Shown here: positions 1,995 to 9,652 of the stretch, piece after piece | Position numbering within the stretch: position 1 is the first letter of the stretch | How the letters are laid out: each line of letters starts with the position of its first letter | From: Chloroflexota bacterium | GTDB taxonomy: Bacteria > Chloroflexota > Ktedonobacteria > Ktedonobacterales > Ktedonobacteraceae | DNA: 9,784 bases | NCBI GenBank assembly: GCA_902810755.1 | Contig: CADDYT010000199.1 | Location: forward strand, 1 to 9,784 | Reading direction: 5' to 3' | Translations under genes and position numbers: made by a program | Notes under the pieces: model-generated | Database searches by the model: none | What the model was told of the DNA's origin: nothing | Seen by the model: only the letters and a program-made list of their open reading frames with translations

Positions 1995-3008
1995 TTACGG
2001 CGGCAGGATATACAGCACAACAATAATGATGGCTACACACAACACAACGGTTACGAGCATGTGACGGTCACGCAGTAAGACTTCTTCAGGACTTCCGCCT
2101 TCTCGCTGCTTATAGACAAGATAGAGATAGCGGAACATGCCGTAAAGCACAAGGGGAATGGTGACCATGAGACGGCGATTGCCGGTCGGCCCCTCGAAGG
2201 TGTAGAGGCTGTAAGCCATCAGGGTAGCGGAGACGACAATCGTAATCATCTGATCCAGCATGGGCAGATTATACTCTTTGAGAATCTGCCGGTGGTTGCT
2301 GGCCTCATCCTGCAACAGCACGAGTTCGTGGCGACGCTTGCTCAAAGCCAGGAAGAGCGCGAGCAGGATGGTGACGAGGTAGAGCCAGGGTGAGACGGAG
2401 ACGGGGATGACCACCGCCCCCGCCAGGATACGCAGGACAAAACCGGCGGCGATGAGAAAGACATCCAGCAGCACAACATGCTTGAGGCGCAGGCTGTAGA
2501 ACACCATCAGCAGCAGATAGGCGGCGACGGAGAGCGCGAAGAGGACATTCGCGCCGACAGGGGCAAAGATATCGGCCAGCGGCGCGATGGGCATGAAAAA
2601 GAGCAGCGTTATTAACGCGGCGCAGGCGAGCAGCAAGACGACGATGGCAGCGACGGCGCGGGAGACGGGCAGGCGACCGGAAGCGAGCGGGCGCAGGCGT
2701 TTGGCCGGATGCTGTCGGTCATTTTCCAGATCGAGCAGGTCATTGAACAGGTAGATGCAGCTCGACGCCAGGCAGAAGACAATGAACGCCACACAGGCCC
2801 GCGCAAGCGACGGCAGCGTGAACAGGCGCTGCGCGAAAACGATGCCCACAAAAAGCGCAAGGTTCTTTGTCCACTGGCGCGGACGCAAAGCCTGCAATAA
2901 AGCGAAAAGCTGCTCCTGTTTCCACGCTGGCACCAGCGTTTCTTTTGCCTCAGAAGCCGCCAACGCCTGCTGCTTTTCTGTTATGGAAGCTTTATCCAGC
3001 AGAGTCAT
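1995..3008 (-). CDS. UbiA-family prenyltransferase, decaprenyl-phosphate phosphoribosyltransferase type
   Basis: The 337-residue protein has about nine hydrophobic segments and the two Asp-rich sites of the UbiA superfamily. The first, NDLLDLENDRQHP (89-101) followed by KRLRP, is the N-D-x-x-D-x-x-x-D-x-x-H-P form typical of 5-phosphoribosyl-1-pyrophosphate:decaprenyl-phosphate phosphoribosyltransferases such as mycobacterial Rv3806c. The second site is at YSLRLKHVVLLDV (171-183), followed by GFVLR (189-193). LRPRQWTKNL (41-50) and ALSKRRHEL (221-229) also fit that subgroup. The expected reaction joins phosphoribose to a long-chain polyprenyl phosphate; in actinobacteria this starts decaprenyl-phospho-arabinose synthesis. 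The DprE1/DprE2 partners are not in this window, so the end product is unknown. The ATG at 3008 follows a modest gggtgaaga site, 40 bases after the regulator gene. About 40 N-terminal residues precede the first family motif and are poorly conserved-looking. A homogentisate or menaquinone prenyltransferase is less likely given the H-P-x-K-R-x-R-P signature. Confidence 0.85.
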   Translation of the reverse strand: MTLLDKASITEKQQALAASEAKETLVPAWKQEQLFALLQALRPRQWTKNLALFVGIVFAQRLFTLPSLARACVAFIVFCLASSCIYLFNDLLDLENDRQHPAKRLRPLASGRLPVSRAVAAIVVLLLACAALITLLFFMPIAPLADIFAPVGANVLFALSVAAYLLLMVFYSLRLKHVVLLDVFLIAAGFVLRILAGAVVIPVSVSPWLYLVTILLALFLALSKRRHELVLLQDEASNHRQILKEYNLPMLDQMITIVVSATLMAYSLYTFEGPTGNRRLMVTIPLVLYGMFRYLYLVYKQREGGSPEEVLLRDRHMLVTVVLCVAIIIVVLYILPP

Positions 3009-3048: not shown

Positions 3049-3738
3049 TCAATAGATGCGCCGCTTCAACTCGGTCATGCGATGCAACGTGATCCTGTGC
3101 TTATCGGTACTGATATAGTGCTTATCGGTGAAATAGCCCAGTACTTTATTCACGCTTTCACGCGAAGCCCCCACCATTGAAGCCAGCTCCTGCTGCGTCA
3201 GGCGCACCTCGATACGCACACCATCATCGACCTTCACGCCGTGCGTGTCCGCCAGTTCCAGCAACTTTTTCGCCACGCGGCCATAGACATCGAGGAAGAT
3301 CAGGTCTTCAATCATCTGGTCGGTGGTACGCAGGCGCTTTGTCAACACTTCCATGACATGAATGGCAATCTGCGGATTCTTCATAACGGCCTTATGGAAA
3401 TCGCTGCGCTGGAGCGAGTAACATTCCACTTTTTCCAGCGTCACGGCATCGGCAGAGCGGGGCAGGCCGTCCAGGATGGCAAACTCGCCGAAGCAGTCTC
3501 CTTTGCCAAAGACGACAAGCGAAATCTCCTGACCATCGGGGCTGATCAGGCACATCTTGACTTTGCCCTCTTTAATAATGTACATCACCTGACCGGGGTC
3601 GTCTCGGTGAAAGATGACCTCGCCACTGCGAAACGTGCGCTTGCGCGCCACTGCCATCAATTCGCGAATGTCGGCATCCGCCAGACCGGCAAATAATGGC
3701 ACCTGCTTGAAGTATAACGCCTCGTCTTCTGTCTGCAT
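3049..3738 (-). CDS. Crp/Fnr-family transcriptional regulator
   Basis: The 229-residue protein has the standard Crp length and layout. A cNMP-binding beta-barrel spans about 10-125 and contains the phosphate-binding cassette GEFAILDGLPRSADA (84-98), with the Arg94-Ser95 pair that contacts the cyclic nucleotide in true cNMP binders. A dimer helix spans about 125-150. The C-terminal winged helix-turn-helix has LTQQELASMVGASRESVNKVL (180-200, written here with its recognition part ASRESVNKVLGYF). There is no N-terminal cysteine cluster, so it is not an FNR-type iron-sulphur sensor. The effector could be cAMP, c-di-GMP or none. The ATG at 3738 has an aaggg ribosome site about six bases upstream. 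It is the first gene of the four-gene minus-strand operon, transcribed from a good promoter at 3824-3852. The arrangement suggests it controls the lipid-linked sugar genes behind it, or itself, or both. Confidence 0.92.
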   Translation of the reverse strand: MQTEDEALYFKQVPLFAGLADADIRELMAVARKRTFRSGEVIFHRDDPGQVMYIIKEGKVKMCLISPDGQEISLVVFGKGDCFGEFAILDGLPRSADAVTLEKVECYSLQRSDFHKAVMKNPQIAIHVMEVLTKRLRTTDQMIEDLIFLDVYGRVAKKLLELADTHGVKVDDGVRIEVRLTQQELASMVGASRESVNKVLGYFTDKHYISTDKHRITLHRMTELKRRIY

Positions 3739-7577: not shown

Positions 7578-8639
7578 ATGGAGGTAGGTATTTCTCTTCC
7601 AACCGGACAGCAGAGGGCAAGGACACGCTGGGGAACGCATGAGAGCGGAGCAGCGTTTGACCGCAAAAAACGCCCGTACCTGAGCGAGCAGGCGCAGGCC
7701 TTTATGATGCAGCAGGCATTCTGTGTGCTTGCCGGTCGCGGGCCGCATGGTGAACTTGATGGGCAGCTCGCGATGGAGAAACCCGGTTTTGTCGAAATTG
7801 TTGATGAGCAGAGCTGCCTGTTGCATCTTACTACAAGTTTAAGGACTTCCCTGCTCTTCCAGGGGCTGGAGCAGGCATCGCTGGCGGAAGAGGCCAGCCC
7901 CGCAGCCCTCTTCTTTATTTGCCATCCCACACGGGAACGGCTGTGCGTGCATGGAACAGCACAACTGCTGCCGGAGAGAAAAGCACCGATCTTCTGGCCC
8001 TTCAAGCGGCAAAACTCGCTGTGCATGCGTTTCAATGTGGAGGAGTCGTTCTTCCACTGTTCTAAGTACGTGCGCACACGGGTAGCGGGTCTGACCGCCC
8101 CCGCGCTTCCATGCGAGGATCAGCAATGGCATCCTCAACAACTGCTCAACGCGGATCAGCAGAGCCTTTCCGAAGAGGTGCGCGCTTTTCTGAGCAAACA
8201 GGTTCTCTGCTTCCTCTGTACGGTCAATCAGGAGGGACGATGTGCGGTCAACCATCGCGGAGGCGCAGCAGGTTTCCTGCTGGCTTTTCCGCCCGACAGG
8301 GTATCGAGCGGAGGTATGGTGTTACTGCCGGACTACGCGGGCAATGGCGCCTTTGAGGCGCTGGGTAATATTCTGGAGACGGGGCAGGCAACGCTGGTTG
8401 TTCCCCAGTATGCTGCTCAGATGGCTGTATGTATCGCCGGAGTCGCGGGTATCTTTGAACAGGCGGAATTCCCGGCATGGCTGGCCCGTAAGTACCAGGG
8501 CGCGGAACGAGCAATCGCCATAGCCGTACAGCGCGTCTCCGTGCAACATGGTGACTGGTCTGCGACCCTGGCTTGCGAGCGCGCCCGTGCCGAATCTCTG
8601 GGGAAGGTGACCAACCCGATCCTGGCATGCCCTGTCTGA
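7578..8639 (+). CDS. Tandem split-barrel flavin-binding protein (PNPOx-like)
   Basis: The 353-residue protein looks like two pyridoxamine 5'-phosphate oxidase-like split barrels in a row, about 36-165 and 196-335, after an N-terminal lead (LPTGQQRARTRWGT) typical of this uncharacterised family. Both halves open with a similar phrase (LSEQAQAFMMQQAFCVL at 35-51, LSEEVRAFLSKQVLCFL at 197-213). The second half keeps the family's central signature, LPDYAGNGAFEALGNILE (250-267), which normally lines the FMN site; the first half has an unrelated stretch there (about 82-104) but keeps FFHCSKYV (158-165). FMN, F420 or haem binding is possible; true PNP oxidase activity is unlikely. The ATG at 7578 has a gagagg ribosome site 11 bases upstream, slightly long. 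The gene precedes the H-NOX gene by 123 bases in the same direction, hinting at a shared redox or NO-related role. Confidence 0.75.
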   Translation: MEVGISLPTGQQRARTRWGTHESGAAFDRKKRPYLSEQAQAFMMQQAFCVLAGRGPHGELDGQLAMEKPGFVEIVDEQSCLLHLTTSLRTSLLFQGLEQASLAEEASPAALFFICHPTRERLCVHGTAQLLPERKAPIFWPFKRQNSLCMRFNVEESFFHCSKYVRTRVAGLTAPALPCEDQQWHPQQLLNADQQSLSEEVRAFLSKQVLCFLCTVNQEGRCAVNHRGGAAGFLLAFPPDRVSSGGMVLLPDYAGNGAFEALGNILETGQATLVVPQYAAQMAVCIAGVAGIFEQAEFPAWLARKYQGAERAIAIAVQRVSVQHGDWSATLACERARAESLGKVTNPILACPV

Positions 8640-8640
8640 A

Positions 8641-8654
8641 CATCTCTAGAGATG
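8641..8654. promoter_or_regulatory. 14-base perfect palindrome after the flavoprotein stop
   Basis: CATCTCTAGAGATG reads the same on both strands and begins one base after the stop codon at 8637-8639. It lacks a loop and U-tract, so it is unlikely to be a terminator. Its size suits a dimeric regulator site ahead of the H-NOX gene. Confidence 0.35.
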
Positions 8655-8762: not shown

Positions 8763-9614
8763 ATGCACGGATTGATCTTTGTAACCTGGGAAAAATACCT
8801 GGCCGAACGATTTGGCACCCCGTTGCTGGCTACCTACCGAAAAATCATAGGGGAGACTCCGGCAAATTCGCCTCTCACCAGTCATGTCTACGATGACGAG
8901 ACGCTCTTAGCCGGTGTCGGCGTTGCCTGCCAGTTAACGCGCCTCCCGGCGGACACACTCTTACATGAGTACGGGCGCTATTTCATCATCAACGGCCTGA
9001 CCAGCCACCTCTGTGCCTACCTGCTGACACAGGTTCACAACGGCAAAGAACTGTTGATGGTCATGCGTGACGCCCACGCTCAGATGCGGCGCACACCTGA
9101 CTCATTGACGCCGCCGCTCTTTGAATACGAAATCTCACCGCTTAACCCGGATAGCTTTGTCCTCATTTACGATAGCCCGCGCAAGCTCTGTTCTGTCCTG
9201 CATGGAGCCATCGAGGGAGCGGCGGCACGCTATGGGGAGAAGGTGCAGGTACGCGAGCAAACATGTATGAAAAAGGGGGCCGCGACCTGCCGCTTCGAGG
9301 TGCATTTCTCCGCCCCGGCTTCCGGTTCGCTGGCACAGCAAGAGACGCCGGAGCAGCGAGAGCGACGGATAGCTCAGCGACGGCTCGATCAACTCGTTCT
9401 GGCCGTTCTCCCTGCCGAGGATGGCGTGACCATGCAAGAGCTGCAAGGAATCCTGCAACTCCACAACGCCATGCCACAGCAAACGCGGCCCAGTGTCCTG
9501 CTGGAGGCGCTCCGGCGCCTGCAACACACCGGCCTCGTCGCCAGCACCGCCAACCAGCCCGGCGATGACCTGACCAACCGTCGCTACTGGCGCGCCCCCA
9601 CCTCCGGCAAATAA
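8763..9614 (+). CDS. H-NOX (haem NO/O2-binding) protein with C-terminal winged-helix domain
   Basis: Residues 1-182 form an H-NOX (HNOB) haem domain. It starts MHGLIFVTW, with Trp9 as in Thermoanaerobacter H-NOX. The proximal haem ligand is His105 in RDAHAQM, followed by a TPP turn at 116-118. The haem-propionate motif Y-x-S-x-R is Tyr136, Ser138, Arg140 (YDSPR). The end of the domain is CMKKGAATCRFEVHF (168-182). The position matching the O2-stabilising distal Tyr140 of Thermoanaerobacter is Val145, which predicts NO/CO rather than O2 binding. After a charged linker (190-207), residues 208-279 look like a winged helix-turn-helix: helix DQLVLAVL, helix TMQELQGIL, recognition helix RPSVLLEALRRLQHTGLV and a wing ending NRRYWRAP. 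Stand-alone H-NOX proteins are about 180-190 residues, so this extra domain is notable. The ATG at 8763 has a strong agaggag site eight bases upstream. The likely role is a cytosolic gas-responsive DNA-binding regulator; target genes are unknown, and the adjacent flavoprotein gene is the first candidate. Confidence 0.85.
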   Translation: MHGLIFVTWEKYLAERFGTPLLATYRKIIGETPANSPLTSHVYDDETLLAGVGVACQLTRLPADTLLHEYGRYFIINGLTSHLCAYLLTQVHNGKELLMVMRDAHAQMRRTPDSLTPPLFEYEISPLNPDSFVLIYDSPRKLCSVLHGAIEGAAARYGEKVQVREQTCMKKGAATCRFEVHFSAPASGSLAQQETPEQRERRIAQRRLDQLVLAVLPAEDGVTMQELQGILQLHNAMPQQTRPSVLLEALRRLQHTGLVASTANQPGDDLTNRRYWRAPTSGK

Positions 9615-9617
9615 AAT

Positions 9618-9652
9618 CAGGGACGCAATCCACGTGATGGATTGCGTCCCTG
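9618..9652. terminator. Strong hairpin, 15-bp perfect stem
   Basis: The left arm 9618-9632 (cagggacgcaatcca) and right arm 9638-9652 are perfect complements with a 5-base loop (cgtga), starting four bases after the H-NOX stop. On the plus strand no U-tract follows. On the minus strand the hairpin is followed by attttattt (complement of 9609-9617), a fair U-tract. It may stop transcription in both directions, but by sequence it is a better intrinsic terminator for leftward transcripts. Confidence 0.6.

Follow-up and report, generated by a model that had tools for sequence, protein, structure and literature searches.

An H-NOX haem domain joined to a predicted winged helix in Ktedonobacteria: a candidate nitric oxide-responsive transcription factor

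Genes and features at the locus

The window, by which we mean the whole stretch of 9,784 nucleotides that was analysed, contains close to its end an ATG-initiated open reading frame whose translation joins an H-NOX haem domain to a predicted winged helix. This fusion gene and the features next to it are the following.

8763-9614, + strand: H-NOX-winged-helix protein, whole gene, 283 amino acids (open reading frame and translation, Pfam HNOB, relatives)
8763-9317, + strand: H-NOX haem domain, residues 1-185 (PF07700 at E 2.2e-22, PDB alignments, conservation)
9348-9611, + strand: predicted C-terminal winged helix, residues 196-283 (AlphaFold2 models, matches to solved winged helices)
7578-8639, + strand: PPOX-type flavoprotein, 353 amino acids (PF01243 at E 1e-10; TIGR04025 below cut-off)
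8641-8654, no strand assigned: perfect 14-bp palindrome CATCTCTAGAGATG, a candidate operator, just past the PPOX stop codon and 108 bp before the sensor ATG
9618-9652, no strand assigned: hairpin with 15-bp perfect arms, just past the sensor stop codon, with a T-rich tail on the minus-strand side only

The PPOX gene lies on the same strand as the fusion gene, 123 bp upstream of it. Elsewhere in the window, the minus strand encodes a UbiA-type protein (1995-3008) that scored 256.1 bits against the decaprenyl-phosphate phosphoribosyltransferase model of NCBIfam (cut-off, 234) and adjoins genes for a flippase-like membrane protein and a glycosyltransferase. A CRP/FNR-type regulator (3049-3738, minus strand) lies near two tandem class III CoA-transferases (PF02515; 4052-5275 and 5305-6519, plus strand).

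The N-terminal domain is H-NOX

PF07700 (HNOB) covered residues 2-164 of the protein with a score of 80.1 bits (cut-off, 25.5), and H-NOX chains of the PDB aligned with it up to residues 1-185, those of S. oneidensis H-NOX being the best-scoring sequences. Both the family cut-off and the fold comparison identified the domain as H-NOX.

Conservation was followed in an alignment of 151 rows, composed of 120 relatives among the matches listed and 31 window or locus proteins, in which the window protein is present twice and some loci are near-duplicates. The proximal histidine and the Y-x-S-x-R motif were present, with His105 (codon 9075-9077), Tyr136 and Arg140 in all 151 rows and Ser138 in 150. 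His105 aligned with a histidine of the S. oneidensis and T. tengcongensis H-NOX proteins which we take to be their haem ligand. Gly71, Met101, Pro118, Cys143 and Cys168 were likewise found in every row, and Pro117, Trp9 and Cys176 in 150. The first-pass annotation had described a complete H-NOX domain with His105 and Tyr136/Ser138/Arg140, and it is borne out by the PF07700 match and by conservation in 150 or 151 of the 151 rows.

The fusion defines a two-domain family of Ktedonobacteria

A protein search rendered 864 relatives at E <= 0.001, the window's own protein included. Among the matches listed there were 120, of which 40 were aligned (again with the window's own), and both domains were present in all 40. 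Some relatives are annotated as "heme NO-binding domain-containing protein," a name that leaves the C-domain unnamed. Scanning a collection of 84,980 species with the family pattern gave 30 loci, Ktedonobacteria throughout; the named genera among them presumably all belong to this class, and the genome of L015, labelled Chloroflexi bacterium, is within the class set.

In the class itself, PF07700 was detected in 28 of 47 genomes (completeness unstated), in a total of 40 genes. A profile of the C-domain matched 39 times, and these matches fall in that set of 28 genomes, every one of them following a same-strand H-NOX domain by no more than 300 bases. Away from H-NOX, the 47 genomes gave no match, with 113 of the 117-164 candidates scored in G001, G003, G038, G039 and G040. 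Thus, 39 of the 40 H-NOX genes of the class carry the C-domain, the exception being L039, from genome G011. Among 400 Chloroflexota genomes of the larger group, 30 had H-NOX; two of these do not belong to the class set, and their H-NOX genes are open frames with 197 and 218 amino acids.

These data confirm the fusion as a real two-domain family, more than a product of chance. A chance or broken C-terminal extension is ruled out by the presence of the domain in 39 of the 40 genes. A widespread helix-turn-helix (HTH) module borrowed from other regulators was also rejected: a word-based search with residues 198-283, whose candidates were restricted to proteins of 0.55-1.75 times 283 amino acids, found 144 proteins, and 118 of the 120 listed contain PF07700. 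Of the two that do not, P0123 is a truncated H-NOX and P0127 is a join of PPOX and winged helix.

The exceptional gene, L039:1495-2571, belongs to a second, divergent H-NOX family of 36 proteins, mostly of 340-390 amino acids, whose named members are Ktedonobacterales and whose tail reads like another winged helix. Genome G011 holds the main fusion type as well. When the C-domains of the two families were compared with hhalign, a single comparison gave a probability of 2.2% and an E value of 0.022, and the joining of the two families was therefore rejected; so weak a match does not support a common origin of the two fusion types.

The C-terminal domain is predicted to be a winged helix and probably binds DNA

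AlphaFold2 predicted for the C-domain a helix at residues 196-215, a one-residue bridge at 222, a helix at 224-233 and helices at 238-241 and 243-255, with wing strands at 259-261 and 275-277. A second model, in which the C-domain was folded alone, gave the same layout. As modelled, the domain would thus contain the three-helix core and two-strand wing of a winged helix. The fold proposed by the first-pass annotation for residues 208-279 was recovered in both models, but the boundary was not, the start of the domain being nearer to residue 196.

The fold resembled those of Fur/Zur, PadR, MarR and Z-alpha proteins, and about 35 of the 50 matches listed by Foldseek were Fur/Zur/Nur-, PadR- or MarR/ZitR-type regulators, with repeated entries; the winged helices of MCM4 and cullins were also among the matches. 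None of the Foldseek matches to the C-domain alone reached E <= 0.001. At the sequence level, a Pfam search of the window C-domain at E <= 10 returned three families, MCM4_WHD (E 0.029; 14.9 bits against a cut-off of 24.4), MshEN (E 0.068; 13.6 against 23.1) and PadR (E 0.095; 13.1 against 27). None exceeded its cut-off, and consequently the winged HTH assignment found no HTH family above threshold. No PDB sequence matched the C-domain profile below E 0.02.

DNA-binding winged helices usually contact DNA through helix 3 and the wing, and conserved basic residues of the family are placed at both. Arg242, at the start of helix 3, is present in 151 of 151 rows, and the RRYWR strand (residues 273-277) retains Arg273 in 151, Arg274 in 143, Trp276 in 151 and Arg277 in 148. 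The net charge of the C-domain averages +1.2, ranging from -3 to +6, in the 77 of 122 proteins that carry the marker motif (the other 45 are without it); the window C-domain has 12 Lys/Arg and 9 Asp/Glu residues (net, +3). In 123 of 151 rows an acidic residue, Glu248, is present in helix 3. The conserved arginines (Arg242 and those of RRYWR) speak for the basic surface expected in homologues of a DNA-binding domain; Glu248 and a mean domain charge of just +1.2 speak against it. The weak mean charge, together with the lack of a family-wide operator (see below) and of an HTH family over its cut-off, was counted against the DNA-binding reading. On balance, we consider that the winged helix probably binds DNA.

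The alternative that survives best is that the winged helix serves as a protein-docking domain, through which the haem domain would control a histidine kinase, NOS or RNA polymerase instead of DNA, much as stand-alone H-NOX proteins control their kinases. The near-neutral charge of the C-domain is in agreement with docking, as is the resemblance to the winged helices of MCM4 and cullins, which we take to be protein-binding; MCM4_WHD was also the commonest weak Pfam match in the family (14 of 29 members; best E value, 0.0017). Furthermore, six loci (L004, L008, L009, L010, L012 and L024) have c3 and c1 cluster genes upstream of the fusion gene on the opposite strand. Pfam identified the members checked, all of them L012 genes, as a PAS protein and histidine kinases. 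However, c3 was found near the fusion gene in those six loci only, c1 was found additionally in L007, L013 and L018, and neither was present in 22 of the 31 regions compared. Given also that helix 3 and the wing hold Arg242 and the RRYWR strand, respectively, we regard docking as unlikely, and DNA binding as the preferred reading.

A nitric oxide synthase gene adjoins the fusion gene in several genomes

Gene neighbourhoods were compared in 31 regions (the 30 loci plus the window), taking into account open reading frames of at least 80 amino acids within about 6 kb. In L021 the fusion frame was displaced by an overlapping one, and the fusion cluster thus counts 30 members. Four genomes have a nitric oxide synthase (NOS) gene immediately before the fusion gene on its upstream side: Dictyobacter arantiisoli (L003; gap, 3 bp), Ktedonobacteria bacterium brp13 (L005; 35 bp), D. 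aurantiacus (L006; 14 bp) and D. kobayashii (L007; 12 bp). Its identity was established by PF02898, with E values of 5e-164 and 5.9e-161 for the two proteins tested. In an uncultured bin (L014), one strand carries, in order, the fusion gene, a gene for a 179-amino-acid protein, a PPOX flavoprotein gene and NOS; two of the junctions are spacers of 17 and 75 bp, and at the third the genes overlap by 4 bp. The 179-amino-acid protein (L014:3665-4204) had no Pfam match at E <= 5. A NOS gene within about 6 kb was not found in 26 of the 31 regions; some of these regions are truncated at a contig boundary, and the window itself stops 170 bases after the fusion gene.

NOS was detected in 12 of the 47 class genomes, and all 12 also carry the fusion; 16 of the 28 fusion genomes have no NOS, and 19 genomes have neither. 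This co-occurrence corresponds to a Fisher p of 0.0006 on the assumption of independent genomes, an assumption that does not hold here. In 5 of the 12 NOS genomes, the NOS gene is adjacent to a fusion gene. The 16 fusion genomes that lack NOS, like the 26 regions in which the gene was not found, weigh against the NO-sensor reading. The NOS linkage, a new addition to the earlier reading of this DNA, suggests a compact switch that makes and senses NO. Copper nitrite reductase was rejected as the NO source, as none of the 47 genomes reached the NirK cut-off; weaker matches occurred in 33.

In Ktedonobacter racemifer, a PAS protein and histidine kinases flank the fusion gene (L012:6648-9202 and L012:10973-12688, both on the minus strand), and the clusters to which these genes belong have members in related loci.

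Three other genomes have a relative of the window PPOX protein next to a fusion gene; in L014, the PPOX gene is located between the fusion and NOS. PPOX is upstream of the fusion gene in Thermosporothrix hazakensis (L030) and downstream of a second fusion copy in Ktedonosporobacter rubrisoli (the L009 genome). The window protein is 57% identical to that of L014 and 42% identical to that of L030. Close relatives, at least 45% identical to the L014 protein, occur in 5 of the 47 genomes (G047 twice, G035, G008, G003 and G006); those of G035 and G008 and the second one of G047 stand apart from any fusion gene in the assemblies. A single gene run (L014) ties PPOX to NOS, and a redox role for PPOX beside NOS is a guess. 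Residues 197-321 alone of the PPOX protein match PF01243, and the protein seems to hold two split-barrel halves. In P0127 (187 amino acids, from a Ktedonobacteraceae MAG), residues 1-87 correspond to the C-terminal part of PPOX (57%) and residues 86-187, in frame, to the end of the H-NOX-winged-helix protein (61%). Either a deletion fused the two genes or the assembly joined them, and the PPOX-sensor order of the window is hinted at here as well.

Nitric oxide is the likely ligand

Trp9, Asn74 and Tyr140 are the residues that we take to line the distal pocket of T. tengcongensis H-NOX. Trp9 is common to both proteins, Asn74 aligned with Phe74, and Tyr140 aligned with Val145, a position at which all 151 rows have Val, Leu or Ile. 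A distal tyrosine is a requisite for O2 binding by H-NOX according to the available part of PMC8738867. The fusion protein, with Val145 in its place, lacks this mark of the O2-binding subclass; O2 sensing is thus disfavoured, and NO is the likely ligand. As judged from these residues, the distal pocket looks like that of the NO-selective H-NOX class. The strongest evidence on the ligand is the NOS linkage, found in relatives and not in the window.

A different input is suggested by three cysteines. Cys143, Cys168 and Cys176 are near-invariant in the family (151, 151 and 150 of 151 rows), and both their spacing and the alignment with S. oneidensis H-NOX equate them with Cys138, Cys163 and Cys171 of Caulobacter H-NOX. 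In the Caulobacter protein these cysteines bind zinc together with His160, and activation occurs by cysteine oxidation and not by NO, as described in the portion of PMC12329717 that was accessible; the same portion gives three cysteines plus His or Gln as the motif of zinc-site H-NOX proteins. A V4R match just below its cut-off spans the same cysteine segment (Pfam). The transcription factor might therefore respond mainly to thiol or zinc redox chemistry through these residues. However, the fourth zinc position is Glu165 in 149 of 151 rows (Gln in one and Lys in one), replacing the His or Gln of the known zinc binders. The protein thus has the three cysteines but not the fourth ligand of the S. 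oneidensis, V. cholerae and C. crescentus type. The NOS linkage, moreover, favours NO, and we consider redox as the main input to be quite improbable. NO and redox inputs may coexist in the fusion protein. Trp9, of an invariant type, and Glu165 at the fourth zinc position are unusual, and both were counted against the NO-sensor reading.

CO, which H-NOX proteins can bind (Fe(II)-CO structures exist) and for which many Ktedonobacteria carry a dehydrogenase, was set aside as a very improbable ligand, since CoxL exceeded its cut-off in 18 of the 28 fusion genomes but also in 8 of the 19 without the fusion (Fisher p of 0.15 over 47 genomes).

Candidate operators

The palindrome CATCTCTAGAGATG is the sole perfect palindrome of at least 14 bp in the 9,784-base window, and it was not found in the family loci compared. 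A scan of the window for terminator-like structures gave 3 sites, no excess over shuffled sequences (mean, 2.1; standard deviation, 1.5).

In Ktedonobacter L008, L010 and L012, an 18-bp near-palindrome, AGGTTGTGTACTCAACCT, lies 187-200 bp upstream of the fusion gene. It occurs exactly once in each of these three genomes, which are close relatives and one of which has an additional site with one mismatch, and was absent from four other genomes searched, in one of which the backwards control sequence matched once. Beyond the site is a divergent gene, and either of the two genes could be under its control. Elsewhere in the family, AGGTTGTGTACTCAACCT scored 8-11 of 16 against shuffled maxima of 10-12, and L002 alone exceeded its own shuffles, by one.

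After removal of the near-duplicate loci L010, L020, L028 and L029, the commonest dyads with arms of 4, 5 and 6 bases were counted in 6, 3 and 2 of 31 upstream regions, respectively, against shuffle maxima of 4, 2 and 1. The excess is small, the regions are related and T-rich, and there is no convincing common site. A family-wide operator was thus rejected, neither CATCTCTAGAGATG nor AGGTTGTGTACTCAACCT being common to the whole family.

Discussion

We favour, with some confidence, the view that the window protein is a one-component, haem-based NO sensor that acts as an NO-responsive transcription factor. The first-pass annotation had proposed a one-component gas-responsive transcription factor; the winged-helix fold and the two-domain layout support it, and the DNA-binding step is a matter of inference. 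According to this proposal, NO would bind the ferrous haem of the N-terminal H-NOX domain, and the bond between His105 and the haem would weaken or break. The H-NOX domain would then shift and, by way of the linker and the long helix 196-215, move the winged helix, whose hold on DNA, and with it target gene expression, would change. Several Ktedonobacteria would draw the NO from their own NOS, encoded in the same gene run. The computations establish the two domains, the haem-ligand and YxSxR residues, the predicted fold and the linkage and co-occurrence with NOS; the binding of haem, NO and DNA by the protein, its dimerisation, direction of response and targets are features that we infer.

Haem-based one-component regulators are a known kind, and CooA, RcoM and DNR are gas sensors that carry a DNA-binding domain. 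The sensor folds of these proteins and of FG214 are CRP-like or PAS, not H-NOX, and we know of no one-component regulator based on H-NOX. FG214 is reported to be an HTH-PAS haem protein (PMC13060918). All four share with the fusion a haem sensor and a domain of DNA-binding type in one chain.

The stand-alone H-NOX proteins of S. oneidensis (SO2144) and Vibrio cholerae (VCA0720) have the same haem domain, histidine ligand and YxSxR-type motif. They act on a separate partner, a kinase or a diguanylate cyclase (PMC8738867, accessible part), whereas in 39 of the 40 class genes the output domain is in the same chain. In the T. tengcongensis type, H-NOX is likewise the sensor of a longer chain and Trp9 is shared, but the output is a membrane-bound receptor and a distal tyrosine accompanies O2 binding (PMC8738867, as far as available), in contrast with the winged helix and Val145 of the fusion. 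HnoC of Shewanella, like the fusion, ties H-NOX and NO to transcription, but as a separate phosphorylated transcription factor (same source and extent), whereas the fusion unites the sensor and the presumed DNA binder in one protein. In Silicibacter, NOS is used in the signalling of biofilm formation (PMC9500659, available in part) and H-NOX acts on a histidine kinase (PMC8738867, available in part); signalling there proceeds via a kinase and a diguanylate cyclase, while in Ktedonobacteria NOS and the fused regulator are adjacent genes. With MsvR, a V4R-type transcription factor, residues 140-180 of the fusion matched the end of the model at E 0.0023, and the score of 17.6 bits against a cut-off of 220 shows that the fusion is not a member.

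Known H-NOX outputs, as far as the available parts of PMC8738867 and PMC9500659 describe them, are histidine kinases, diguanylate cyclases/phosphodiesterases and fusions to chemoreceptors. No H-NOX fused to a DNA-binding domain was found by title or abstract when the full texts of an open-access library were searched, where a passing mention is possible, and none of the open-access full texts searched treats H-NOX together with Ktedonobacter or Chloroflexi. The first-pass annotation had not recognised the protein as a member of a described class, in agreement with this result.

Ktedonobacteria are filamentous, sporulating soil bacteria. They may possess a self-contained circuit in which the genes for NOS and for a one-chain H-NOX transcription factor lie together and NO directly tunes the transcription of the NOS run and other genes, with no kinase or second messenger, and the conversion of H-NOX into a transcription factor may have happened repeatedly, given the winged-helix-like tail of the L039 family; we put this forward as a tentative idea, less probable than not. 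If the proposal is true, an H-NOX transcription factor would be a shorter route to gene expression than the kinases, cyclases/phosphodiesterases and chemoreceptors described in the accessible parts of PMC8738867 and PMC9500659. The way in which haem-NO chemistry sets an output domain in motion could then be studied in a simple system, and NO-responsive gene switches would gain a candidate component. H-NOX is the bacterial relative of the animal NO receptor, and the fusion would give it a new output; the linkage to NOS offers a test of the purpose of bacterial NO synthase in the Ktedonobacteria.
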